Source of the DNA: Acidovorax sp.
Lineage (GTDB): Bacteria > Pseudomonadota > Gammaproteobacteria > Burkholderiales > Burkholderiaceae_C
Assembly: GCA_031277855.1 (NCBI GenBank)
Contig: JAITLO010000036.1
Span: 1 to 64,000, forward strand
Direction of reading: 5' to 3'
Length of the DNA: 64,000 bases
This document shows, piece after piece, positions 33,226 to 45,623 of the stretch (its first letter is position 1; every line of letters begins with the position of its first letter). The translations under genes were made by a program, and so were the position numbers. Under the pieces are notes generated by a model, which had not been told where the DNA came from, ran no database searches, and saw nothing but the letters and a program-made list of their open reading frames with translations.

Positions 33226-34425
33226 TCAACCCACGGCGCCCAGAGCACGCAGCTGCACCACTTCTTCCGGGGTGTAGCCGGCGGCCAGCAGGACAGAGTC
33301 CGTGTGCTCGCCACGGCGGGGCGCGGGCAGGCGCACCTCGAAGTCAAAGCCACTCATTTGCACGGGACAGGCCAACTGCCTGGCCTGTGCCGGGCCACCG
33401 TGAAGCGGCCGCACCATGCCGCGCGCCTGAAAGTGCGGATCGTCCAGAGCCTGCTCCAGCTTGAGCACAGGCGTCACGCAGCAGTCGCTGCCCGCCAGCT
33501 TGTCTGTCCACCATGCCAGGGACTGCGCAGCAATGAGCTGCCGCAGCTCTGCGCGCACCCACCCGATCTTTTCGGGATCGTCGAAGCTGTGCAAATCCTT
33601 CAAGTCTTCGCGTCCCAGCAGCGCGCAAAAGCCCTGCCAGAACTTGGGCTCCAGCGCCGCCACGGCCAGGTGGCCACCGTCTGCGGTCTGGTACATGGCA
33701 TAGCAGGGCAGCGCGCCTGTGAGCTTGCTCTGGCCGGCCGGCTGGCTGCGGCCTACGGTATTGACCGTGGCCAGCGGAATGACGGCATGGGCCAGAACGC
33801 CGTCGGCAATGGCGATGTCCACATGCCGGCCAGGCCCCCCGCGCGCCACATCGTAGAGCGCGGCCAGAATGCCCATGACGGCGGGCATGGAGCCACCCAG
33901 CAAATCGGCCTGCGGCAGGCTGGTCAGTGCCGGCGCCTGGCCTGCTGCACCGTTCTGGTCGGCCACACCGGTGAGCGCGCAGTAATTCATGTCATGCCCG
34001 GGCGCGTTGCGGTAGGGGCCGGTCTGGCCATAGCCGGTGAGGCTGCAATACACCAGCTTGGGGTTGCGCGCCGCAGCCTGGGCCCAGCCCACGCCCAGGC
34101 GTTCCATCACGCCGGGGCGAAAGCTCTCCACCAGCACATCGGCCTGCTCGCACAGCTTGAGCAAGGTCGCCACGCCTTCGGGACTTTTGAGATTCAGCCC
34201 CAGGCCGCGCTTGTTGCGGTTGACCAGGGTGCGCACCGGCTCGGCCGTGTAGTCGCCGGCTTCCAGGTCTTCGATCTTGATGACATCGGCACCCAGGTCG
34301 GCCAGGTGCAGCGTGCACATGGGGCCGGGCAGCAAACGGGTCAGGTCCAGAATGCGGACCCCTGCCAAGGGGGCTGTTGTGGCGGGGGGGGACGCAGTGG
34401 AAGGCTGTGTGTGGAGTGGTGACAT
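33226..34425 (-). CDS. CaiB/BaiF-family protein, alpha-methylacyl-CoA racemase-like
   Basis: This 399-residue class III CoA-transferase fold protein contains GHDMNYCALTG. It matches the GHDxNYxxLxG motif of alpha-methylacyl-CoA racemases and supplies the catalytic aspartate. FRPGVMERLGVG and DIAIADG are also typical. A racemase would convert 2-methyl-branched acyl-CoAs to the isomer accepted by the acyl-CoA dehydrogenase, fitting the neighbouring operon. The true ATG is at 34425; the frame is open upstream only with a TTG. Confidence 0.84.
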   Translation of the reverse strand: MSPLHTQPSTASPPATTAPLAGVRILDLTRLLPGPMCTLHLADLGADVIKIEDLEAGDYTAEPVRTLVNRNKRGLGLNLKSPEGVATLLKLCEQADVLVESFRPGVMERLGVGWAQAAARNPKLVYCSLTGYGQTGPYRNAPGHDMNYCALTGVADQNGAAGQAPALTSLPQADLLGGSMPAVMGILAALYDVARGGPGRHVDIAIADGVLAHAVIPLATVNTVGRSQPAGQSKLTGALPCYAMYQTADGGHLAVAALEPKFWQGFCALLGREDLKDLHSFDDPEKIGWVRAELRQLIAAQSLAWWTDKLAGSDCCVTPVLKLEQALDDPHFQARGMVRPLHGGPAQARQLACPVQMSGFDFEVRLPAPRRGEHTDSVLLAAGYTPEEVVQLRALGAVG

Positions 34426-34533
34426 GGTGGCAGGCAAAGAAAGGCTGGAGCCAGTCTAGTCAGCCAGTGCGGGGCGCTGCAATGGCCGTCCTGGTCAATG
34501 CCATTGGCCGGAATGTTCACCCGGTCTATGGCA

Positions 34534-34550: not shown

Positions 34551-35846
34551 CTACATATGGTTGGGCAGCGCGGTCACGATGCCGGGGAAGATCCACAGAA
34601 TCGCCAGGGCCAACACCATCAGGCAGAAGTAGGGTGCACAGACTTTGGCGATGTAGGTGACCTGCTTGCCCGTCATGCCTTGCAGCACAAACAGGTTAAA
34701 GCCCACGGGTGGCGTGATCTGCGCGGTCTCCACGGTGATCACCAGGAAGATGCCGAACCACAGCGGATCGATGCCCGCCGCCTGGATGATGGGCAGCACC
34801 ACGCTCATGGTCAGCACGATGGTGGAGATGCCATCCAGAAAGCAGCCGATCAGAATGTAGAAGATGCCCAGCACGATGATCAGCATCACCGGAGACAGAT
34901 GCAGGCTGCCCACGAACTCGGCCAGTTGGCGCGGCAGGCCGATATAACCCATGGACAGGGTCATAAAGGCTGCGCCCGCCAGGATCAGGGCGATCATGCA
35001 GTACAGGCGGGTGGCGCCAAACAGCGCGTCCTTGAAGTTCTTCCAGGTCAGCGCACCTTGCAGGGCCGAGAGAATCAGCGAGCCCAGCACGCCGATGGCG
35101 GCGGCCTCCGTGGCCGTGGCGATGCCGGTGTAGATGCTGGCGATCACCGAGGCAATCAAGAGCACCACCGGAATCAGGTGGCGGGCCTCGTGCAGCTTTT
35201 GCATAAAGCTCATGGAGGCATCGGCCTTGGGGACTTTCTCGGGGTTCATCAAGGCCCAGACCATGATCCAGCCGCTGAACATCAAGGCCAGCATCAGCCC
35301 GGGCAGCACGCCGGCCATGAAGAGCTTGGAGATGGACAGCTCGGCCGAGACGCCATAGACGATGAGGATGATGGAGGGCGGGATCAGCAACCCCAGCGTG
35401 GCCGGGCCGCCCAGCGAGCCAATGACCTGTGCCTCGGGATAGCCGCGCTTGCGCAGCTCGGGGATGTTCATCTTGCCCACGGTGGCGCAGGTGGCGGCGG
35501 ACGAGCCGGAGACGGCAGCAAAAATGGTGCAGCCAATCACATTGGTGTGCAGCAGTCGCCCGGGCAGGGCGTTGACCCAGGGTGCCAGGCCACGGAACAT
35601 GCTTTCCGACAGATTGGTGCGGTAGAGGATTTCGCCCATCCACACAAACAGCGGCAAGGCGGTGAGCGTCCAGCTGCTGGCCGAGCCCCAGATGGTCATG
35701 GCCATGGCATCGCCCGCAGCGCGGGCGGTGAAAAACTCCATGCCAAACCAGGCCACGCCGGCCAGCGTGAGGCCTACCCAGACGCCGCCGCCCAACAGGG
35801 CTAGCAGCACCACGATCAAGGCAATGCTTGCGGTGATTTCATTCAT
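34551..35846 (-). CDS. dctM: TRAP transporter large membrane subunit (DctM)
   Basis: This 431-residue protein has about twelve hydrophobic segments and typical DctM stretches: GGPATLGLLIPPSIILIVYG and TVETAQITPPVGFNLFVLQG. It is the ion-coupled channel of a TRAP transporter for organic acids. The ATG at 35846 was chosen because AGGAGG lies nine bases before it; a second ATG at 35855 would touch that site. It overlaps the end of the dctQ gene by eight bases. Confidence 0.92.
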   Translation of the reverse strand: MNEITASIALIVVLLALLGGGVWVGLTLAGVAWFGMEFFTARAAGDAMAMTIWGSASSWTLTALPLFVWMGEILYRTNLSESMFRGLAPWVNALPGRLLHTNVIGCTIFAAVSGSSAATCATVGKMNIPELRKRGYPEAQVIGSLGGPATLGLLIPPSIILIVYGVSAELSISKLFMAGVLPGLMLALMFSGWIMVWALMNPEKVPKADASMSFMQKLHEARHLIPVVLLIASVIASIYTGIATATEAAAIGVLGSLILSALQGALTWKNFKDALFGATRLYCMIALILAGAAFMTLSMGYIGLPRQLAEFVGSLHLSPVMLIIVLGIFYILIGCFLDGISTIVLTMSVVLPIIQAAGIDPLWFGIFLVITVETAQITPPVGFNLFVLQGMTGKQVTYIAKVCAPYFCLMVLALAILWIFPGIVTALPNHM

Positions 35847-36345
35847 GGTGGGCATCCTCCTGCGATGCTTGCTTGCGTTGTCCCGTCAACTCCAGCACCA
35901 GCTCATCGCAAAAGGCGATGAAGAACACCACGGTGCCCAATGCCATGAAAACCTGGGGAATCCACATGGGGGTGGCGTCGATGCCCACCGATATATCGCC
36001 AATGTCCCAGGATTGCCACACCAGGTGGGTGGCGTAGAAGGCCAGGAAGCCCGAGAGCACGGTGGCAATCAGCAGGGCGGCCACTTCCATGGCCTTGCGC
36101 GCCTGGCCTTGGAGGGCGCCCAGCAGCAGGGTCACGCGGATGTGCTCGCCCTTTTTGAGCGTGCTGGCCAGGGCCATGAAGCCGGCGCCCGCCATGGCAT
36201 AGCCGGCGTAGGCATCGGTGCCGGGCGCACTGAAGCCAAAGAGGCGGCTGGCGATGGTGAGCAACACCATGAGCAGCACACCCACCATGGACAGGCCTGC
36301 CAGCCAGGCACTGGCGGCATACAGACCATCTAAAAACTTTCGCAT
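35839..36345 (-). CDS. dctQ: TRAP transporter small membrane subunit (DctQ)
   Basis: This 168-residue protein has four hydrophobic segments, a typical DctQ pattern with GEHIRVTLLLGAL after the second helix. It pairs with DctM in the inner membrane. The start MRKFLDG was chosen because the first helix follows at once; the ORF extends upstream over non-homologous codons. Its stop overlaps the dctM start, indicating coupled translation. Confidence 0.88.
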   Translation of the reverse strand: MRKFLDGLYAASAWLAGLSMVGVLLMVLLTIASRLFGFSAPGTDAYAGYAMAGAGFMALASTLKKGEHIRVTLLLGALQGQARKAMEVAALLIATVLSGFLAFYATHLVWQSWDIGDISVGIDATPMWIPQVFMALGTVVFFIAFCDELVLELTGQRKQASQEDAHHE

Positions 36346-36430
36346 AGCAGCGGTTCCCAAGTGGAATCGGCCGGGCATTGCACCGCAAGGCTTGGAGGTG
36401 GCCGTGCCGTGCAATGCCTGGGGCCTGGTA

Positions 36431-37414
36431 TTACCTGGCGGCCTTGTAGGCATCCAAAACGGCCTTGCCTTCTGCGCCGGCCTTCTCGGTCCATTCCTTG
36501 ACCACGGTTTCACCCAGCTTGGCCAGGTCTGCCTTCAGCTGGGGCGAGGGCAGCTCCACGCTCATGCCGCCTTGCTTGAGCGTGGCCTGGGACTTGGCAT
36601 CCACCTCGCGCGACTCTTTCCAGCCGCGCTCTTCGGCGGCGGCTGCGGCCTTGAGCAGCGCGTCCTGCTCGGGCTTGCTCAGCGCGGCAAAAGCCTTTTT
36701 GCTCACGGTGACGGCGTTCTTGGGGATCCAGGCCTGGACGTTGTAGTAGTACTTCAGGCTCTCGAACAGCTTGTTGTCGGCACCAGTGGCGCTGGAAGAG
36801 ATCAGGCCGTCGACCACGCCAGTGGCCAGGGCCTGGGACAGCTCGGCTTCCTGCACGGTCACCGGCTGGGCACCGATCAGCTCGCCGATGCGGGCCGTGG
36901 TGGGCGAGTACACGCGCCACTTCATGCCCTTGAGGTCGGCCACGGACTGCACGGGCTTTTTGGTATAGATGCCTTGCGGTGGCCAGGCCACGGCATACAG
37001 CAGCACCTGGCCCTGTTTGTCCAGTAGCTTTTGCAGCGCAGGCTTCTGGGCCTGGTAGAGCTTGAAGGCTTCTTCATAGCTGCTCACCAGAAAGGGCAGA
37101 CCATCGACACCAAAGATTTGCGATTCGTTCTGGAAGCTGACCAGGAAGAACTCGCCCATCTGCGCATTGCCTGTTTGCACGGCGCGCTTGATCTCGGGCA
37201 TCTTGAACAGCGAAGCGCCAAAGTGCGGCGTGATCTTGAGCTTGCCACCGGTGGCTGCATCCACATCCTTGACGAACAGCTCGTTGTTCTTGGAGTGGAA
37301 GTTGAATGCGGGGTAGGCCGTGGCGAAGTCCCACTTGGTCTGGGCTGCGGCAGCGCCGGCAAAGCCAATGCTGGCGATCAGGGCCGTGGTGGCGCAAAAA
37401 ATGCGTCGTTGCAT
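36431..37414 (-). CDS. dctP: TRAP transporter solute-binding protein (DctP)
   Basis: This 327-residue protein has a signal peptide of about 24 residues ending GAAAAQT. DctP motifs follow, including the binding-site region LKGMKWRVYSPTTARIGELI with the conserved arginine. The next stretch reads PVTVQEAELSQALATGVVDG. It binds an organic acid in the periplasm and delivers it to DctQM. A FadR-type operator lies 180 bases upstream, next to the GntR gene, so the transporter is probably repressed by that regulator. Confidence 0.9.
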   Translation of the reverse strand: MQRRIFCATTALIASIGFAGAAAAQTKWDFATAYPAFNFHSKNNELFVKDVDAATGGKLKITPHFGASLFKMPEIKRAVQTGNAQMGEFFLVSFQNESQIFGVDGLPFLVSSYEEAFKLYQAQKPALQKLLDKQGQVLLYAVAWPPQGIYTKKPVQSVADLKGMKWRVYSPTTARIGELIGAQPVTVQEAELSQALATGVVDGLISSSATGADNKLFESLKYYYNVQAWIPKNAVTVSKKAFAALSKPEQDALLKAAAAAEERGWKESREVDAKSQATLKQGGMSVELPSPQLKADLAKLGETVVKEWTEKAGAEGKAVLDAYKAAR

Positions 37415-37661: not shown

Positions 37662-38336
37662 TCAGGCGCGCACACCTTGCTCGGCCAGGCGGCGGGCATA
37701 GGCTGCGAGGATGATGCGCTCCGAGTGCACCAGATAGTCGTGCAGGGAGTTGGAGGCCTCGGTCAGCTTGCCGGCCTCAAACAACGCCAGCAGCTTGGCG
37801 TTCATGTCCACATAGGGGGCGTGCAGAAACTCCGGGTCGCGCAGCAGGCCGAAGGCCAGGCGCAGCTCGGCCAGCAGGTGGGTGAACATGGTGTCCAGCC
37901 GCTCGCTGTCGGCCAGCGCAACGACGGCTTTGTGAAAAGCCATGTTTGCCGAGCCCACGGCAGGCCAGTCGCGCTCCTCGCGGCCACGCAATGCATCTTC
38001 CACGGCGGTGCGCATGGCGCTGCGCGCCGGGTGCATGGGGTAGGCCTGGGCCAGTGCCTGGCACTCGATCATGCGGCGCACACGGTAGATGTCCATGATG
38101 GACGCCATGCTGGGCGCCGCCACCGAGACGCCCTTGTTGGGTTCGTGCACCAGCAGCCCTTCTTTGGTCAGCAGCCGGAAGGCCTCGCGCAGCGTGTTGC
38201 GTGAGATGGCCAGGCTTTCGCTGAGTGCGGCCTCGGACAGCCGCTGGCCTGGCTCCCAGTCGCCTGCGATCAACTTGCTGCGCAGTTCTTCGGTCACGCG
38301 GTCGGCGAGGTTCTGGGTGTCGGTAGTGCGGCTCAT
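37662..38336 (-). CDS. GntR-family regulator with FCD domain
   Basis: This 224-residue protein has a winged HTH at about 10-75 (LSEAALSESLAISRNTLREA) and a complete FCD ligand domain at about 85-210. The FCD histidine/aspartate pattern is visible (NMAFHKAV, LVHSERII). FCD regulators bind carboxylic acids and usually repress. The gene lies between the TRAP operon, same strand, and the 5-oxoproline cluster, divergent. FadR-type operators sit on both sides, so it probably controls both. Confidence 0.87.
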   Translation of the reverse strand: MSRTTDTQNLADRVTEELRSKLIAGDWEPGQRLSEAALSESLAISRNTLREAFRLLTKEGLLVHEPNKGVSVAAPSMASIMDIYRVRRMIECQALAQAYPMHPARSAMRTAVEDALRGREERDWPAVGSANMAFHKAVVALADSERLDTMFTHLLAELRLAFGLLRDPEFLHAPYVDMNAKLLALFEAGKLTEASNSLHDYLVHSERIILAAYARRLAEQGVRA

Positions 38337-38795: not shown

Positions 38796-39515
38796 ATGTT
38801 GGCTGACGTTAATCTCTGGCCCCTGATCGGGGTGGCCATCATCATTGCGGGCTTTGTGCTGCGCTTTAACCCCATGCTGGTCGTGATCGTCACGGCCATT
38901 GGCACGGCCATGGCGGCGGGCTTTCCGCTGGACAAGGTGCTGGCCACCATTGGCACCGGCTTTATCAAGACGCGCAATCTGCCCTTGATTATTTTGTTGC
39001 CTCTGGCCGTCATTGGTCTGCTGGAGCGCCACGGCCTGCGCCAGCACGCGCAAAGCTGGATCAGCTCCATCAAGTCGGCCACGGCCGGCCGCCTGCTGAT
39101 CGTCTACCTGGCAGCGCGCCAGCTCACGGCTGCCATCGGTTTGACCAGCCTGGGTGGACACCCCCAAATGGTGCGCCCGCTGCTGGCGCCCATGGCCGAA
39201 GGTGCCACCGAATCCCGCTACGGCAAGCTGCCCGCCAAGGTGCGCGACAAGCTGCGGGCCTATTCCGCCGCCACCGACAACGTGGGCCTGTTTTTTGGCG
39301 AGGACATCTTTGTGGCCTTTGGCGCCATCGTGCTGATGACCACCTTCTTGCGTGAGGCGGGTATCGAGGTCGAGCCCATCCACGTGGCGCTGTGGGGCAT
39401 TCCCACGGCCGTCTGCGCTTTTGCAATCCATGCCTGGCGCCTGCGCCGCCTGGACAAGACCCTGGCCCGCGAAATGGCCGCCCACCAAGCTGCCGCCGCT
39501 AGCCAGAAAGCCTGA
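38796..39515 (+). CDS. DUF969 membrane protein (putative 5-oxoproline transporter subunit)
   Basis: This 239-residue membrane protein has hydrophobic segments near 8-25, 28-48, 65-85, 105-120, 175-195 and 205-220. The pattern NVGLFFGEDIFVAFGAIVLM is characteristic of DUF969. DUF969 and DUF979 pairs recur next to pcp and pxpABC genes, which suggests together they carry 5-oxoproline; this is inferred from context, not shown biochemically to my knowledge. The next gene starts two bases after the stop. Confidence 0.8.
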   Translation: MLADVNLWPLIGVAIIIAGFVLRFNPMLVVIVTAIGTAMAAGFPLDKVLATIGTGFIKTRNLPLIILLPLAVIGLLERHGLRQHAQSWISSIKSATAGRLLIVYLAARQLTAAIGLTSLGGHPQMVRPLLAPMAEGATESRYGKLPAKVRDKLRAYSAATDNVGLFFGEDIFVAFGAIVLMTTFLREAGIEVEPIHVALWGIPTAVCAFAIHAWRLRRLDKTLAREMAAHQAAAASQKA

Positions 39516-39517
39516 TC

Positions 39518-40471
39518 ATGATTCTCTCTATCCAGCATCTTTACTATCTGGTGGGCTTTGTCCTGGCGGTCACGGCCGTCATGACGCTGCGCGACGCCAG
39601 CAACCCCAAGCGCTATAGCGCAGGCCTGTTCTGGGCCTTGTATGCCGCAGTCTTTCTGGTTGGTGAGCAACTGCCGCCCACCTGGGTGGGTGCCGGCGCT
39701 GTGCTCATGGCCGTGATTGCCGGTTTCGGCGGCGTGGCGGGCGGGCGTCTCGCTCCGCGCAGCGATGCCGAGTACCTGGCCAGCGCCAAGCGCCTGGGCA
39801 ACAAGCTGTTTGCCCCGGCCCTGGCCATTCCCCTGATCACCATGGCCGGCACGCTGTCTGCCAAACACCTGGTGATCGGCGGCACGCCGCTGCTGGACCC
39901 CAAGAATGCCACGCTGGTGAGCCTGGGCGTGGGCTGTGTGCTGTCGCTGGCGCTGGTGTGCTGGCTGACCCGTGAGACACCGGCCCAGGGCATGCGCGAA
40001 TCGCGCCGGCTGATTGATGCCCTGGGCTGGGCCCTGGTGTTGCCGCAGATGCTGGGCATGCTGGGCCTGGTGTTCTCGGACGCGGGCGTGGGCAAGGCCG
40101 TGGCCCATGTGACCACCACCTATATCAACATGGACATGCGCTTTGTGGCGGTGGCCGTGTATGTGATTGGCATGGCACTGTTCACCATCATCATGGGCAA
40201 TGGTTTTGCCGCTTTCCCGGTGATGACGGGGGGCGTGGGCGTGCCGGTGCTGGTGGGTGTCTACCACGGTGACCCCGCGGTGATGGCCGCTGTGGGCATG
40301 CTCTCGGGTTACTGCGGCACCTTGCTGACGCCCATGGCTGCCAACTTCAACCTGGTGCCCGCCGCCTTGCTGGAAATTGACAAAAATGCGGTGATACGCG
40401 CGCAAATGCCCACGGCCATTGCGCTCTTGATTGCCAACATATTCCTGCTGAACTTCCTGATGTTCCGCTGA
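39518..40471 (+). CDS. DUF979 membrane protein (putative 5-oxoproline transporter subunit)
   Basis: This 317-residue polytopic membrane protein has about nine hydrophobic segments. Its C-terminal half is strongly conserved-looking ([20 protein letters not shown] and [20 protein letters not shown]). It is the standard partner of DUF969, starting two bases after it, so both are probably made together as a transporter. The predicted substrate, 5-oxoproline or a relative, rests on the neighbours pcp and pxpA. Confidence 0.8.
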
Positions 40472-40482
40472 CGCTCCGAAAG

Positions 40483-41154
40483 ATGACCATGACAGCCCCA
40501 GAGCGCCCTCGCATTCTGCTCACCGGCTTCGAGCCGTTCGACAAAGACCCCATCAACCCCTCCTGGGAAGTGGCACGCGCGCTCGATGGTGCGGAGATTG
40601 CCGGTGGCTCCGTGCATGCCGTGCAACTGCCCTGTGTGTTCGGTGATGCCATGGCCGTGCTGGATGAGGCGCTGACACGTCTGCAGCCCACGCTGGTCAT
40701 CAGCCTGGGTCTGGCCAGTGGCCGCAGCGACATCACGCCCGAGCGCGTGGCCATCAATATCGATGACGCCCGCATTCCCGACAACGCAGGCAAGCAGCCG
40801 GTGGACGAGGCCGTGGTGGACAAGGCCCCGGCCGCCTATTTCTCCACACTGCCCATCAAGGCCATGGTGCGAAATTTGCGTGAAGCAGGCATTCCTGCAG
40901 CGGTGTCCAACACCGCAGGCACCTTTGTCTGCAACCATGTTTTCTATGCCTTGATGCACCGCCTCGCACGCCGGGCCGCTCCCGGCGTGCGCGGTGGTTT
41001 CATTCATATACCGGCCTTGCCGCAGCAGGCCGCGAAGATGCCGGGCATGGCCAGCATGGCGTTGGAAACCCAAGTCAAAGGCATGCGCGAAGCCATTCGC
41101 ACCGCCATGACCACCAAAGAAGACCTGCGTGAAAACGCCGGCCAATTGCATTGA
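40483..41154 (+). CDS. pcp: pyroglutamyl-peptidase I (pyrrolidone-carboxylate peptidase)
   Basis: This 223-residue C15 cysteine peptidase has the expected triad: Glu in TPERVAINI, Cys in [14 protein letters not shown] and His in [10 protein letters not shown]. The N-terminal [19 protein letters not shown] is diagnostic. It removes N-terminal pyroglutamate from peptides, releasing the 5-oxoproline that the downstream pxp genes would open to glutamate. A start at 40489 is also possible. A gene-end repeat begins within eight bases of the stop codon. Confidence 0.92.
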
Positions 41155-41342: not shown

Positions 41343-42113
41343 ATGAAAATGGATTTGAACAGCGATTTGGGCGAGAGCTTTGGCGCCTGGACCATGGGTG
41401 ACGATGCCGCCATGCTGGACATTGTCAGCAGTGCCAATGTGGCCTGCGGCTTTCATGCCGGCGATGCGGCCGGCATCCTGGCCACGCTCAAGGCCGCCAA
41501 GGCGCGCGGCGTGGTGGTGGGCGCCCATGTGGCCTACCGCGACCTGGCCGGCTTTGGCCGCCGCAATATGGACGTGGCAAGCGCCGACCTGGTGGCTGAT
41601 GTGATCTACCAGATCGGCGCCCTGCAAGGTCTGGCCCAGGCTGCAGGCACCACGGTGCAGTACGTCAAGCCCCATGGCGCGCTCTACAACACCATTGCCC
41701 AGGACAAGCGCCAGGCCACGGATGTGATCCAGGCGATCAAAGTCCTTAACCCCAGTCTGGTGCTGATGGCTCTGGCCGGCTCACCACTGATTGGCTGGGC
41801 GCGCGAGGCCGGCCTTACGGTGATGGCCGAGGCCTTTGCCGACCGGGCCTATATGCCCGATGGCGCCCTGGTCTCGCGCCGCGAGCCCGGCGCCGTGCTG
41901 CATGACCCCGCGCACATTGCCGAGCGCATGCTGCAGCTGGTGCGGCATGGCACGGTGCAGGCCGTGGACGGCAGCCAGGTGCGCATAGCGGCCGATTCGA
42001 TTTGCGTGCACGGCGACAGCCCCGGCGCCGTGGCCATGGCCCGCGTGCTGCGCCAGCGCTTTGAAGCCGAGGGCGTGCGCATTGCTTCTTTTGTGAACGC
42101 GCCAGCCAAATGA
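41343..42113 (+). CDS. pxpA: 5-oxoprolinase subunit A (LamB/YcsF family)
   Basis: This 256-residue protein has the YcsF signature start [13 protein letters not shown], followed by [13 protein letters not shown] and [10 protein letters not shown]. PxpA is the polysaccharide-deacetylase-like subunit of the three-part bacterial ATP-dependent 5-oxoprolinase, which opens 5-oxoproline to glutamate. A GGAG site precedes the ATG at 41343. Its stop overlaps the start of the pxpB-pxpC fusion (ATGA), so they are translationally coupled. Confidence 0.93.
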
Positions 42114-43753
42114 GTGCCATGCGTTTTCTGCCCGTCAACCGCCAGGCTTTGCTGGTGGAATTGGCCGACCTGCCGCAAACCCTGGTGTTGCTGCAATCGC
42201 TGCAAGCTGCGCCCATTGCCGGTGTGCAGGAGCTGGTGCCCGCAGCGCGGACCATCCTGGTGTACTTTGCCCCGCAGCAGATCACGGCGGCTGCGCTGGT
42301 GAAGGCCATTGCCGGCCGCGAGCTGGGCGGCAGCGTGCAGCGCAGCGAGGTGCTGGTGCAAATCCCCGTGCGCTACGAAGGTGAAGACCTGGCCGAGGTG
42401 GCGCAGATGCTGGGCATCAGCCCCGAGGAAGTGGTGCGCCGCCATACCGGCAGCGAATGGGCCGTGGCCTTTACCGGCTTTGCGCCGGGCTTTGCCTATT
42501 TGAGCGGCGGCGATCCCATCTTCAACGTGCCACGCCGTGCCACGCCGCGCACCAAGGTGCCCGCAGGCGCCGTGGCCCTGGCCGGTACCTTCAGCGCGGT
42601 CTACCCCCAGGCCAGCCCTGGCGGCTGGCAAATCATTGGCGTGACCGACGCCGCCATGTGGGATGTGGAGCGCGAACTGCCCGCGCTGCTTCAGCCCGGC
42701 TACCGCGTGCAGTTTGTGGACGCAGCAAAAACCATAGCTGCCGGTGCAGACCAACAGCCAGATTCCAAGCCAAACACTGCCAAGGTGCAGGCTGTAAAAG
42801 CACAGTCTGCTATCCAAATTGAAGAGGCCGTGGAAGAGGGCGGCGCGGCACTGCGCGTGCAGTCCACCGGCCTGCTCACCCTGTTCCAGGACCTGGGCCG
42901 CCATGGCCAGGCCGGGCAGGGCGTATCGGCCTCGGGCGCCATGGACCAGGGCGCGCTCAAAACCGCCAACCGCCTGGTGGGTAATCCCAGCCAGTTGCCG
43001 GCGCTGGAAACCGTGGGCGGAGGCCTGGCCCTGCAAAGCGTGGGAGACAACGTGGTGGCCGTCACCGGCGCCGCTGCCCCGCTGTGGCTGCGCACGGCCG
43101 ACGGCCAGCGCTGGTCCGTGCCCTGCCATGCCCCCGTGGCCCTGGCCGATGGCGATGTGTTGCAGATAGACCAACCCATCTCCGGCGCACGCTGCTACGT
43201 GGCCGTGCGTGGCGGCTACCGGGTAGCGCCGGTGCTGGGCAGTGCATCCACCGACACCCTGGCCCATGTGGGCCCGCCAGCCCTGCAGCGCGGCCAGCTG
43301 CTGCAGGTACAGCTCGTGCAAGGCGCGCAGGCCGTGGTGGGTGCGACCCAGTTGCCGCCGCAGGGCCTGCCCGCAGCCGGTGCCGAAGTGGTACTGGATG
43401 TGGAGCTGGGCCCGCGCACCGACTGGTTCACGCCCGAAGCCGTGGCCCTGCTGGCCGCGCAGCGCTGGCAGGTCACACCCCAGTCCAACCGCGTGGGCCT
43501 GCGCCTGGCGGGCGATACGCCGCTGGCCCGCTCCATTACCAGCGAGCTGCCCAGCGAGGGCACGGCCCTGGGCGCCATCCAGGTGCCCGCCAGCGGCCAG
43601 CCCGTGCTGTTTCTGGCCGACCACCCCTTGACCGGGGGCTATCCCGTGATCGGCTGCGTGGCACCCCACCACCTGGACCTGGCGGGACAGATCCCCGTGG
43701 GCGCCTGGATTCGCTTTAACCCCATTCGATTTTTTGAAGAGCTCGTACCATGA
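42110..43753 (+). CDS. pxpBC: 5-oxoprolinase subunits B and C fused (PxpB-PxpC, AHS1-AHS2)
   Basis: This 547-residue protein combines PxpB/KipI (AHS1) at about 1-205 with PxpC/KipA (AHS2) at about 245-547. The first part shows [16 protein letters not shown] and [15 protein letters not shown]. The second starts [20 protein letters not shown] and contains GYPVIGCV near its end. In many bacteria these are separate genes; here a linker of about 40 residues joins them. AHS1-AHS2 is also the carboxyltransferase part of urea carboxylase. The start overlaps pxpA by four bases, and its stop overlaps the start of a vestigial leader ORF (ATGA). Confidence 0.92.
42721..42840 (+). other. PxpB-PxpC linker with intergenic-repeat character
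   Basis: Codons of about residues 205-244 encode a low-complexity, alanine/glutamine-rich linker. The DNA has AAAAACCATAGCTGCCGGTGC, which shares ATAGCTGC-NN-GTGC with the dispersed repeat at 3989 and 14735. The linker may derive from an intergenic repeat that once separated two genes. Confidence 0.4.
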
Positions 43754-43869
43754 TTTCCAAAGTGCTGATCGCGAACAGAGGGGAAAACGGCCGCTATGCG
43801 GACGTTTCACTACATTGCCGTACCTGCGCAGCAGGTGACCGCTATTTCGCCCGCCCTGCCATTTGCTGA
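43750..43869 (+). pseudogene. 39-codon leader ORF: displaced duplicate of biotin carboxylase start
   Basis: The ORF begins with [12 protein letters not shown], the same twelve residues that open the real carboxylase gene at 43887, but most codons are synonymously different. After residue 12 it leaves homology, includes a small hairpin (ACCTGC-GCA-GCAGGT) and stops five bases before the ATG at 43875. Its ATG overlaps the pxpBC stop (ATGA). It looks like the remnant of the original coupled start after recombination, or a coupling leader. Confidence 0.6.
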
Positions 43870-43874
43870 GTTCA

Positions 43875-45623
43875 ATGTACGAAAAAATGATCTCTAAAGT
43901 TTTGATTGCCAACCGTGGCGAAATAGCCGTCCGCATTGCCCGCGCCTGTGCTGACTATGGTGTGAAGTCGGTGGCGGTCTATGCCGATGCCGACATCGAT
44001 GCCCTGCATGTGCGCGCTGCCGACCAGGCTTTTGGCCTGGAGGGCGACAAGCCGGCCGACACCTATCTGCATGTCGACAAGCTGATTGCCATTGCCAAGC
44101 GCTGCGGCGCCGACGCCGTGCATCCCGGCTACGGCTTTCTGTCGGAAAGCGCGGCCTTTGCCCAGGCCGTGATCGACGCCGGCCTTCGCTGGATTGGCCC
44201 CAAGCCCGACACCATTGCCCAGCTGGGCGACAAGGTGCAGGCGCGCAAGATTGCGCTCAAGGTCGGCGCGCCGCTGGTGGCAGGCACCTCCGAGCCGGTG
44301 CAAGACGCCGGCGAGGTGCTGGCCTTTGCCCAGCAGCATGGCCTGCCCATCATCATCAAGGCAGCGTTTGGCGGCGGTGGGCGCGGCATGAAGATCGCCT
44401 GGCGCATGGACGAAGTGGAAGAGCTCTACCACTCCGCCGTGCGCGAGGCCGTCACGGCCTTTGGCCGGGGCGAATGCTTTGTCGAGCAGTTCCTGGACAA
44501 GCCCCGCCATATCGAGGCCCAGGTGCTGGCCGACACCCATGGTCAGGTGGTGGTGCTGGGCACGCGCGACTGCTCGCTGCAGCGCCGCAACCAGAAGCTG
44601 GTGGAAGAAGCTCCCGCACCTTTTATTACCGAAGAACAGCGCGAACGCATCCACAGCGCAGCCCAGGCCATTTGCGCCGAGGCCGGGTATGTCAGCGCCG
44701 GCACGGTGGAGTTTTTGCTCTCGGCCAACGGTGCGATCTCTTTCCTCGAGGTCAACACCCGCTTGCAGGTGGAGCACACGGTGACCGAAGAAAGCACCGG
44801 CCTGGACCTGGTGATAGAGCAGCTGCGCGTGGCCGATGGCCTGCCGCTGTCCATCAGCGCCACACCCGCAGCGCGCTGCCACTCCATAGAGTTCCGTATC
44901 AATGCCGAAGACGTGGGCCGGGGCTTTTTGCCCACGCCCGGCCCGGTGCTGAAGTTTGCCCCGCCTTCCGGCCCCGGTGTGCGCCTGGATGCGGGCGTGG
45001 AAACCGGCTCCGTCATCCCCGGCAGCTTTGACTCCATGATGGCCAAGCTCATCGTCACCGGCGCCACACGCGAGCAGGCCCTGGCCCGCGCGCGCCGCGC
45101 CCTGGCGGAGTTCCAGATCGAGGGCGTGGCCTCGGTACTGCCTTTCCACAAGGCCGTCATCGACCACCCGGACTTCATCGGTGCAGATGGCTTTAAGGTG
45201 CATACGCGCTGGATCGAATCCGACTTTGCCGAGCCGCTGGCCGCCGCCGTGCGCGCCCAGCCCCTGCCCGACACCAGCCTGGTGCGCGCCGCCATCGAGG
45301 TCAACGGCCACCGCGTGCAACTGGGCCTTCCGGCCGGTTTGCTGGCCGGCCTGGCAGGGGCCGCAGGCATTGGCGCAGCCGCGCTTGCACCCACTGCGGC
45401 CGAGGCCGTGGATGCCAACGCCGTGACCTCGCCCATTGCAGGCAATCTGCATGCCTGGAAGGTGGCCGATGGCGACCAGGTGCAAGAGGGCGATGTCATT
45501 GCCGTGATGGAGGCCATGAAGATGGAGATGCAGGTGGCGGCCCACAAGAGCGGCCGCATCACGCTGGCTGCAGAAGCCGGCAGCGCCCAGGCTCTGGGCG
45601 CCGTGCTTGCACGGATCGCCTAG
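43875..45623 (+). CDS. biotin carboxylase-biotin carboxyl carrier fusion (acyl- or 5-oxoproline-type)
   Basis: This 582-residue protein has a biotin carboxylase domain at about 6-450, showing HPGYGFLSE, the ATP-grasp loop FGGGGRGM at 165-172 and [19 protein letters not shown] domain follows at about 510-582 with the biotin lysine K549 in MEAMKMEM. No carboxyltransferase domain is present and no AccD/PccB-type gene is in the window. The adjacent AHS1-AHS2 protein could fill that role as in urea carboxylase. The ATG at 43875 or the one at 43887 may be used; the leader ORF ends just upstream. Confidence 0.87.

Follow-up and report, generated by a model that had tools for sequence, protein, structure and literature searches.

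A cluster encoding PxpA, a fusion of PxpB and PxpC (PxpBC) and a protein that joins biotin carboxylase (BC) to biotin carboxyl carrier protein (BCCP) lies on a 64,000 nt stretch of an Acidovorax sp. genome (GCA_031277855.1, contig JAITLO010000036.1, positions 1 to 64,000; the window, below, is this whole stretch). With a probability of roughly 0.6, we read this cluster as a dedicated biotin-dependent form of the prokaryotic 5-oxoprolinase. The BC-BCCP protein is very probably the functional partner of PxpBC, because BC linkage is near-constant in the subfamily concerned, no classical carboxyltransferase (CT) is clearly spare in the genome and a homologous pair is found in PDB entry 9yx5. As far as our literature search reached, what is new is the recognition that a subfamily of 5-oxoprolinases, itself widespread, comes with an AccA3-type BC-BCCP dedicated to it, and the biotin mechanism that this implies; the component families, the deposited homologous complex and the question, asked in 2011, of service to other biotin carboxylases (PMC3199775) were already known.

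Biotin carboxylase and carboxyltransferase modules on two genes

Domains of PxpA, PxpB and PxpC (LamB_YcsF, CT_C_D and CT_A_B) are found in adjoining genes, and the PxpA stop overlaps the PxpBC start as ATGA (42110-42113). The PxpBC open reading frame (ORF) has 547 aa, with CT_C_D (PxpB/AHS1) at residues 4-194 and CT_A_B (PxpC/AHS2) at 271-537 in Pfam searches. Read from the ATG at 43875, BC-BCCP has 582 aa, carries an EAMKM biotin site whose lysine is K549 and keeps 12 of the 12 positions that we take to be the active site of E. coli AccC. The four modules that the original prediction had assigned to two genes beside PxpA are thus present as Pfam domains, and the biotin lysine is K549, as it stated.

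The fusion protein stays below the NCBIfam equivalog cut-offs for PxpC_5OPro (163.7 vs 500) and TIGR00370 for PxpB (129.6 vs 145.55), and reaches 230.1 bits with the wider TIGR00724, whose cut-off is 230.2. Its predicted model has the urea-carboxylase CT fold. With its CT domains, this fold and a homologue bound in an AccA3 complex, PxpBC is a candidate carboxyltransferase partner for BC-BCCP. For BC-BCCP itself the best PDB matches are M. smegmatis AccA3 (733 bits) and 5mlk (716 bits), which we take to be AccA3 as well; the next entry scores 453.

Recurrent linkage of BC to PxpB

The search for BC genes extended some 7 kb to either side of PxpB, or to the contig end where that came sooner. 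CT_C_D matched in 84 of 249 Pseudomonadota genomes, from which 79 PxpB places were fetched, all from genomes other than the window's and on frames not long enough to encode a single-chain urea carboxylase (frames of that size, one match below the cut-off and the place in the window itself were left out); in Actinomycetota it matched in 29 of 119 genomes, and 31 places were fetched. BC was found near PxpB at 19 of the 79 and 9 of the 31 places, far above the 1.5-3% or so that we estimate for position alone, in genomes that are related to each other.

The Pseudomonadota places with BC fall into two types. Type 1, the clade of the window, comprises 11 of the 79 (10 fused, and one in which PxpB and PxpC have a frame each), and BC-BCCP is nearby in 11 of 11. 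Type 2 comprises eight places in which separate PxpB and PxpC genes stand beside a different kind of BC; seven of these stretches contain a BCCP gene, and the eighth is cut short by a contig end. The BC linked at type-2 places is an extra copy, since all eight genomes hold at least one further BC, on a frame of 449-484 aa.

In named genomes, 578 loci similar to type-1 PxpBC were confirmed, and the best 80 were taken, ranked by their likeness to an alignment of type-1 proteins with a Pseudomonas-like PxpBC at its head; this selection makes them type 1, and they do not represent a random sample. BC is encoded in the same stretch at 78 of the best 80, with a BCCP signal on the same ORF in 74. Genera represented are Pseudomonas, Comamonas, Cupriavidus, Sinorhizobium, Photorhabdus, Acinetobacter and Arthrobacter. 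The PxpBC and BC genes lie at a distance fitting a 4-nt overlap in 23 of 86 type-1 loci (those measurable among 91), and the gap in the window is 121 nt. One genome (G043) carries the type-1 operon PxpA-PxpBC-BC-BCCP twice (L035 and L052), on different branches of the type-1 trees.

At the nine BC-linked places of Actinomycetota, a biotin-motif ORF is present in eight, and further gene arrangements occur; one more place, L231, shows a BCCP-like ORF only, at a contig end. When whole genomes were searched, 27 of the 29 in Actinomycetota that have CT_C_D gave a BC match, partial in the case of G353; of the two with no BC match, in a set of genomes whose completeness is unstated, G416 has only a weak PxpC-like frame, and G377 is described below.

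Other arrangements were seen along the way. Nine loci (L086, L088, L089, L090 and L092, also L230, L232, L233 and L235) have separate genes for PxpA, an AccC-like BC, PxpB and PxpC, most with an EVMK-type BCCP; L090, at a contig end, lacks BCCP and PxpA in its stretch. The five Pseudomonadota members (L086, L088, L089, L090 and L092) have Lys at the position of urea-carboxylase Lys1605 and no pyroglutamate accessory genes, so they may carboxylate another amide. In Actinomycetota, L228, L229 and L234 are frames of 705-793 aa with weak PxpC likeness (and PxpB likeness in two) and no BC nearby.

Phylogenetic placement of the two proteins

In a BC tree of 74 domains, M. smegmatis AccA3 falls in one group with the 43 type-1 BCs (support 99 in a quick search without bootstraps, as in the PxpC tree below). 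The 17 urea-carboxylase BCs form a separate group without the window BC (support 100), a third group joins AccC of E. coli and of the window's own genome with three type-2 BCs (100), and the other five type-2 BCs make a fourth (100). The PxpC tree (127 domains) likewise places 42 type-1 rows and MSMEG_0435 in one group (99). There, E. coli YbgK groups with eight BC-less and three type-2 rows (96). A further group (99), made up of five type-2 rows and a single BC-less one, joins urea carboxylase with support 92. Four changes of the type-2 label are needed on this tree, and type-2 loci stand apart from type 1. The groupings in both trees make it probable that PxpBC-type proteins acquired a linked BC repeatedly, and not always of the same kind.

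Carboxyltransferases in the same genome

Absence of AccD or PccB from the window, as the original prediction had it, says little alone, but BC and CT matches across the whole genome (95.5% complete) are in line with it. Six BC matches were obtained, BC-BCCP of the window included. One is AccC-sized (C39), two lie near a CT (C45 and C40), one shares a 1103-aa frame with a CT (C38) and one is part of a 1242-aa single-chain urea carboxylase (C49). Three of the five classical CT matches belong to C45, C40 and C38; the remaining two are partial, and we take them, judging from their size and the part matched, for AccD (C20) and AccA (C7), for which the AccC-sized BC is available. BC-BCCP of the window can thus be assigned as the sole BC lacking a classical CT of its own, with a shared beta subunit as a possibility, and no AccD-type beta subunit clearly free for it was found among the five matches in this 95.5% complete genome. 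A dedicated CT elsewhere in the genome, named beforehand as a finding that would speak against the idea, was looked for in this way, and each of the five candidates could be assigned to another BC.

A deposited complex of homologues

PDB entry 9yx5 bears the title 'Structure of the long chain acyl-CoA carboxylase complex from Mycobacterium smegmatis with MSMEG_0435-MSMEG_0436 bound'. As judged from this title, the naming of the chains and sequence comparison, it holds AccA3 together with PxpC and PxpB homologues and is the strongest single support for a partnership of PxpBC with BC-BCCP. As in the window, an AccA3-type BC-BCCP and PxpC/PxpB homologues of the same clades come together, here in one complex. 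Unlike the window, where PxpBC is fused and BC-BCCP is encoded alongside, the M. smegmatis entry has separate PxpB and PxpC chains, and its AccA3 belongs to an acyl-CoA carboxylase complex.

Genomic context and substrate

The genes around PxpBC and BC-BCCP are collected in Table 1. Upstream of pxpA stand genes for pyroglutamyl peptidase I, which releases 5-oxoproline from peptides, and for DUF969 and DUF979 proteins, probably the two halves of a 5-oxoproline transporter; the DUF969 protein has a weak likeness to the gntP permease model, far below its cut-off. On the opposite strand, the best PDB matches of the DctP protein are 2pfz and 2pfy, presumably the Bordetella receptors DctP6 and DctP7. 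Structures of DctP6 and DctP7 were solved with 5-oxoproline (PMC13274462). A CaiB-like CoA-transferase frame, named by inspection, lies beside the TRAP genes at 33226-34437.

Table 1. Genes of the cluster and its surroundings (positions in the window).
Feature	Position	Strand	Basis
DctM-like subunit of a tripartite ATP-independent periplasmic (TRAP) transporter	34551-35855	-	named by inspection
DctQ-like TRAP subunit	35839-36513	-	named by inspection
TRAP periplasmic receptor DctP, candidate 5-oxoproline receptor	36431..37414	-	best PDB match 2pfz E 1.1e-110, then 2pfy 3.1e-82
GntR/FCD protein, divergent from the operon, candidate regulator	37662..38336	-	PF00392, PF07729
DUF969 protein, probable half of a 5-oxoproline (or pyroglutamyl peptide) transporter	38796..39515	+	PF06149 E 3.4e-88
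DUF979 protein, probable second transporter half	39518..40471	+	PF06166 E 1.8e-115
Pyroglutamyl peptidase I	40483..41154	+	TIGR00504 294 bits (cut-off 202); Peptidase_C15
PxpA (LamB/YcsF)	41343..42113	+	NF003814 376.3 bits (cut-off 226); LamB_YcsF
PxpB-PxpC fusion, carboxyltransferase-type subunit, Arg142	42110..43753	+	CT_C_D, CT_A_B
Remnant or leader ORF, 39 codons, first 12 residues shared with the start of the BC gene	43750..43869	+	sequence, translation
BC-BCCP, AccA3 type, biotin Lys549	43875..45623	+	Biotin_carb_N, CPSase_L_D2, Biotin_carb_C, Biotin_lipoyl

A PxpA gene lies close by in every one of the 11 surveyed type-1 loci and in 79 of the best 80 named ones. Pyroglutamyl peptidase is nearby at 2 of the 11, 5 of the best 80 named loci, 6 of the 60 BC-less PxpB places and none of the eight type-2 places; for DUF969/DUF979 the corresponding counts are 2/11, 10 of the best 80, 5/60 and 0/8. 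Type 1 and classical PxpABC therefore partly share their accessory genes, which argues for one substrate, 5-oxoproline.

Comparison with urea carboxylase and PxpABC

The original prediction had described the cluster as a split urea-carboxylase-like assembly, and close kinship with urea carboxylase is not supported. Urea carboxylase (K. lactis 3va7/5i8i, and the enzyme of the window's own genome, C49) is a single chain with the CT halves in the opposite order, a BC of a different clade and Lys1605 (KlUA) where PxpBC has Arg142. This position was aligned with MAFFT, in a residue table that has about 2 of its 17 urea-carboxylase rows badly truncated, and the Lys of the own-genome urea carboxylase was read separately. 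The two chains of the window score 152 and 494 bits with the urea carboxylase model TIGR02712, against a cut-off of 1303.85. In the strict sense the cluster is therefore not a split urea carboxylase, given the AccA3 grouping of its BC and Arg142; PxpC also groups apart from urea carboxylase.

PxpABC (E. coli YbgJKL, 5dud; C. glutamicum pxpABC) shares with the window the PxpA, PxpB and PxpC domains and a pyroglutamate gene context, and E. coli PxpB has Arg at the position of Arg142. PxpC of the window differs from that of E. coli in clade and in falling below the NCBI equivalog cut-offs. For T. thermophilus TTHA0988 (3oep) the PDB entry says putative uncharacterized protein only. Among earlier work is a 2011 paper in which homologues of the urea-carboxylase CT, encoded by two adjacent genes, were thought possibly to serve other biotin carboxylases (PMC3199775); it was one of two possibilities raised there and, in the accessible text, came without linked BC genes, a substrate or PxpA.

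Proposed mechanism and its alternatives

As the domain families of BC-BCCP indicate, its BC domain would use ATP and bicarbonate to form carboxybiotin on Lys549 of its own BCCP, and the biotin arm would carry the carboxyl group to the PxpB-PxpC carboxyltransferase. PxpBC would then place it on 5-oxoproline, by analogy with urea carboxylase and from gene content most simply on the ring nitrogen. N-carboxylation would activate the otherwise stable lactam by making its carbonyl imide-like, PxpA would hydrolyse the ring of the carboxylated 5-oxoproline, and the N-carboxyglutamate formed would lose CO2 to give glutamate. Carboxylation of 5-oxoproline is the most coherent reading of the cluster. The parts and their integrity are seen in the sequence, their linkage in many bacteria and the complex of homologues in a deposited structure; partnership is well supported for the window's subfamily, and for the inferred chemistry, which the original prediction called unsettled in agreement with the literature, our support is moderate. 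Of the original prediction, the partnership is supported, and close kinship with urea carboxylase is not.

Several observations weigh against a biotin-dependent enzyme. PxpB with no BC in the stretch read is the commoner form (60 of 79 Pseudomonadota places), and fused PxpBC has no BC nearby at L168 and L188, two of the best 80 named loci, and at L219 in the Actinomycetota survey, in which many unfused relatives likewise show no BC in their surroundings. The genomes of L168 and L188 do hold an AccA3-sized BC elsewhere (frames of 590 and 619 aa; AccA3 size refers here and below, as in the Actinomycetota checks, to frame length only). The E. coli pxpBCA locus has no BC gene, and in G377 (1.9 Mb, completeness unstated), which has a PxpB-PxpC-PxpA set (L215), no BC was detected. 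In C. glutamicum pxpTABC is needed for growth on 5-oxoproline and, by word search of the accessible text, a carboxylase goes unmentioned (PMC13274462). Phosphorylation of 5-oxoproline by PxpBC is assumed in the literature (PMC13274462), and ATP hydrolysis by co-purified PxpB and PxpC has been reported (PMC8453981). With Arg142 in place of the general base, the details of the transfer step cannot be those of urea carboxylase, and the evidence from 9yx5 is at the level of title, chain names and sequence matches.

Activity of PxpABC in species with no linked BC (PMC13274462; the E. coli locus), the 60 BC-less places, G377 and the reported ATP hydrolysis favour a classical phosphorylating 5-oxoprolinase, in which PxpBC activates 5-oxoproline with ATP, PxpA opens the ring and BC-BCCP is regulatory or structural. 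We consider this unlikely for the window, where every position checked in the BC and BCCP sites is conserved, where the domains and fold of PxpBC are those of a biotin-dependent carboxyltransferase, and in view of a BC linkage that recurs on several PxpC branches. It is very improbable that BC-BCCP is the alpha subunit of an acyl-CoA carboxylase, merely co-transcribed with the pxp genes and supplied with a carboxyltransferase from elsewhere. Its nearest solved relatives are indeed AccA3 proteins, which serve such carboxylases, but no CT in the genome is clearly unpaired, the linkage is kept in two phyla with genes often closely spaced or overlapping, the genome of L189 (G307) has a second AccA3-sized BC besides the linked one, and in 9yx5 it is to an AccA3 complex that the homologous PxpBC binds. 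The same biotin chemistry on another substrate, such as another lactam, a hydantoin, a guanidine-like compound or a modified pyroglutamate, would fit a CT domain of this fold that acts on urea in urea carboxylase (PMC5770610) and the small number of type-1 loci with a pyroglutamyl peptidase. It is nevertheless rather improbable given the near-universal PxpA, Arg142 as in E. coli PxpB in place of the urea-carboxylase Lys and, in the window, the peptidase, DUF969/DUF979 and the DctP likeness; the lactams, hydantoin and urea of the original prediction accordingly rank below 5-oxoproline.

A wider form of the biotin-dependent 5-oxoprolinase is more tentative, and we hold it to be somewhat doubtful: all PxpBC proteins would be carboxybiotin-dependent carboxyltransferases with BC as the spender of ATP, species with no linked BC would borrow AccC/AccB or AccA3, component A of the P. 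putida 5-oxoprolinase would be BC-BCCP plus PxpBC, and 5-oxoproline would be activated through transient N-carboxylation. The enzyme described by Meister's group has a component A of 64 and 51 kDa and a component B of 82 kDa, and component A is reported to be a 5-oxoproline-dependent ATPase that does not open the ring (PMC8453981). A biotin scheme would give just such an ATPase if PxpA were absent. Masses calculated for the window are 61.2 (BC-BCCP), 57.0 (PxpBC) and 26.8 kDa (PxpA, three copies of which make 80), and for six Pseudomonas loci 60.6-62.1, 55.3-57.1 and 26.8-27.2 kDa, respectively. Proteins of P. capeferrum and P. fulva, which we take to be members of the P. putida group, match fused PxpBC over the full length. 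The 51 kDa subunit is below the 55-57 kDa calculated for Pseudomonas PxpBC, and we regard this identification of component A as a lead, not a match.

A duplicated start of the BC-BCCP gene

The 39-codon ORF between PxpBC and BC-BCCP begins at an ATGA junction with PxpBC. The opening 12 codons of the BC gene are duplicated, standing at this junction and again 137 nt downstream in the BC gene (43750-43886), and the two copies agree in 27 of 36 bases. It looks as if an element had been inserted after codon 12, bringing its own copy of the gene start. A similar leader, with a GEN-type continuation and a TGCGCAGCAGG core, occurs in L062, L134 and L157 and twice in L156. Leader DNA was matched in 4 of 60 genomes of the family, strongly only in the window's own genome and G207.

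Implications for 5-oxoproline use in bacteria

The accessible literature offers no more than an assumption on how the widespread bacterial 5-oxoprolinase PxpABC uses ATP, and the near-constant, intact BC partner of the subfamily described here provides a concrete and testable mechanism. If true, biotin would here serve a hydrolysis that recovers glutamate, with CO2 as a catalytic activator and no net carbon fixation. The old names 'allophanate hydrolase' and 'KipI' would need another revision, and the complex of the M. smegmatis AccA3 enzyme with MSMEG_0435-0436 would be explained.

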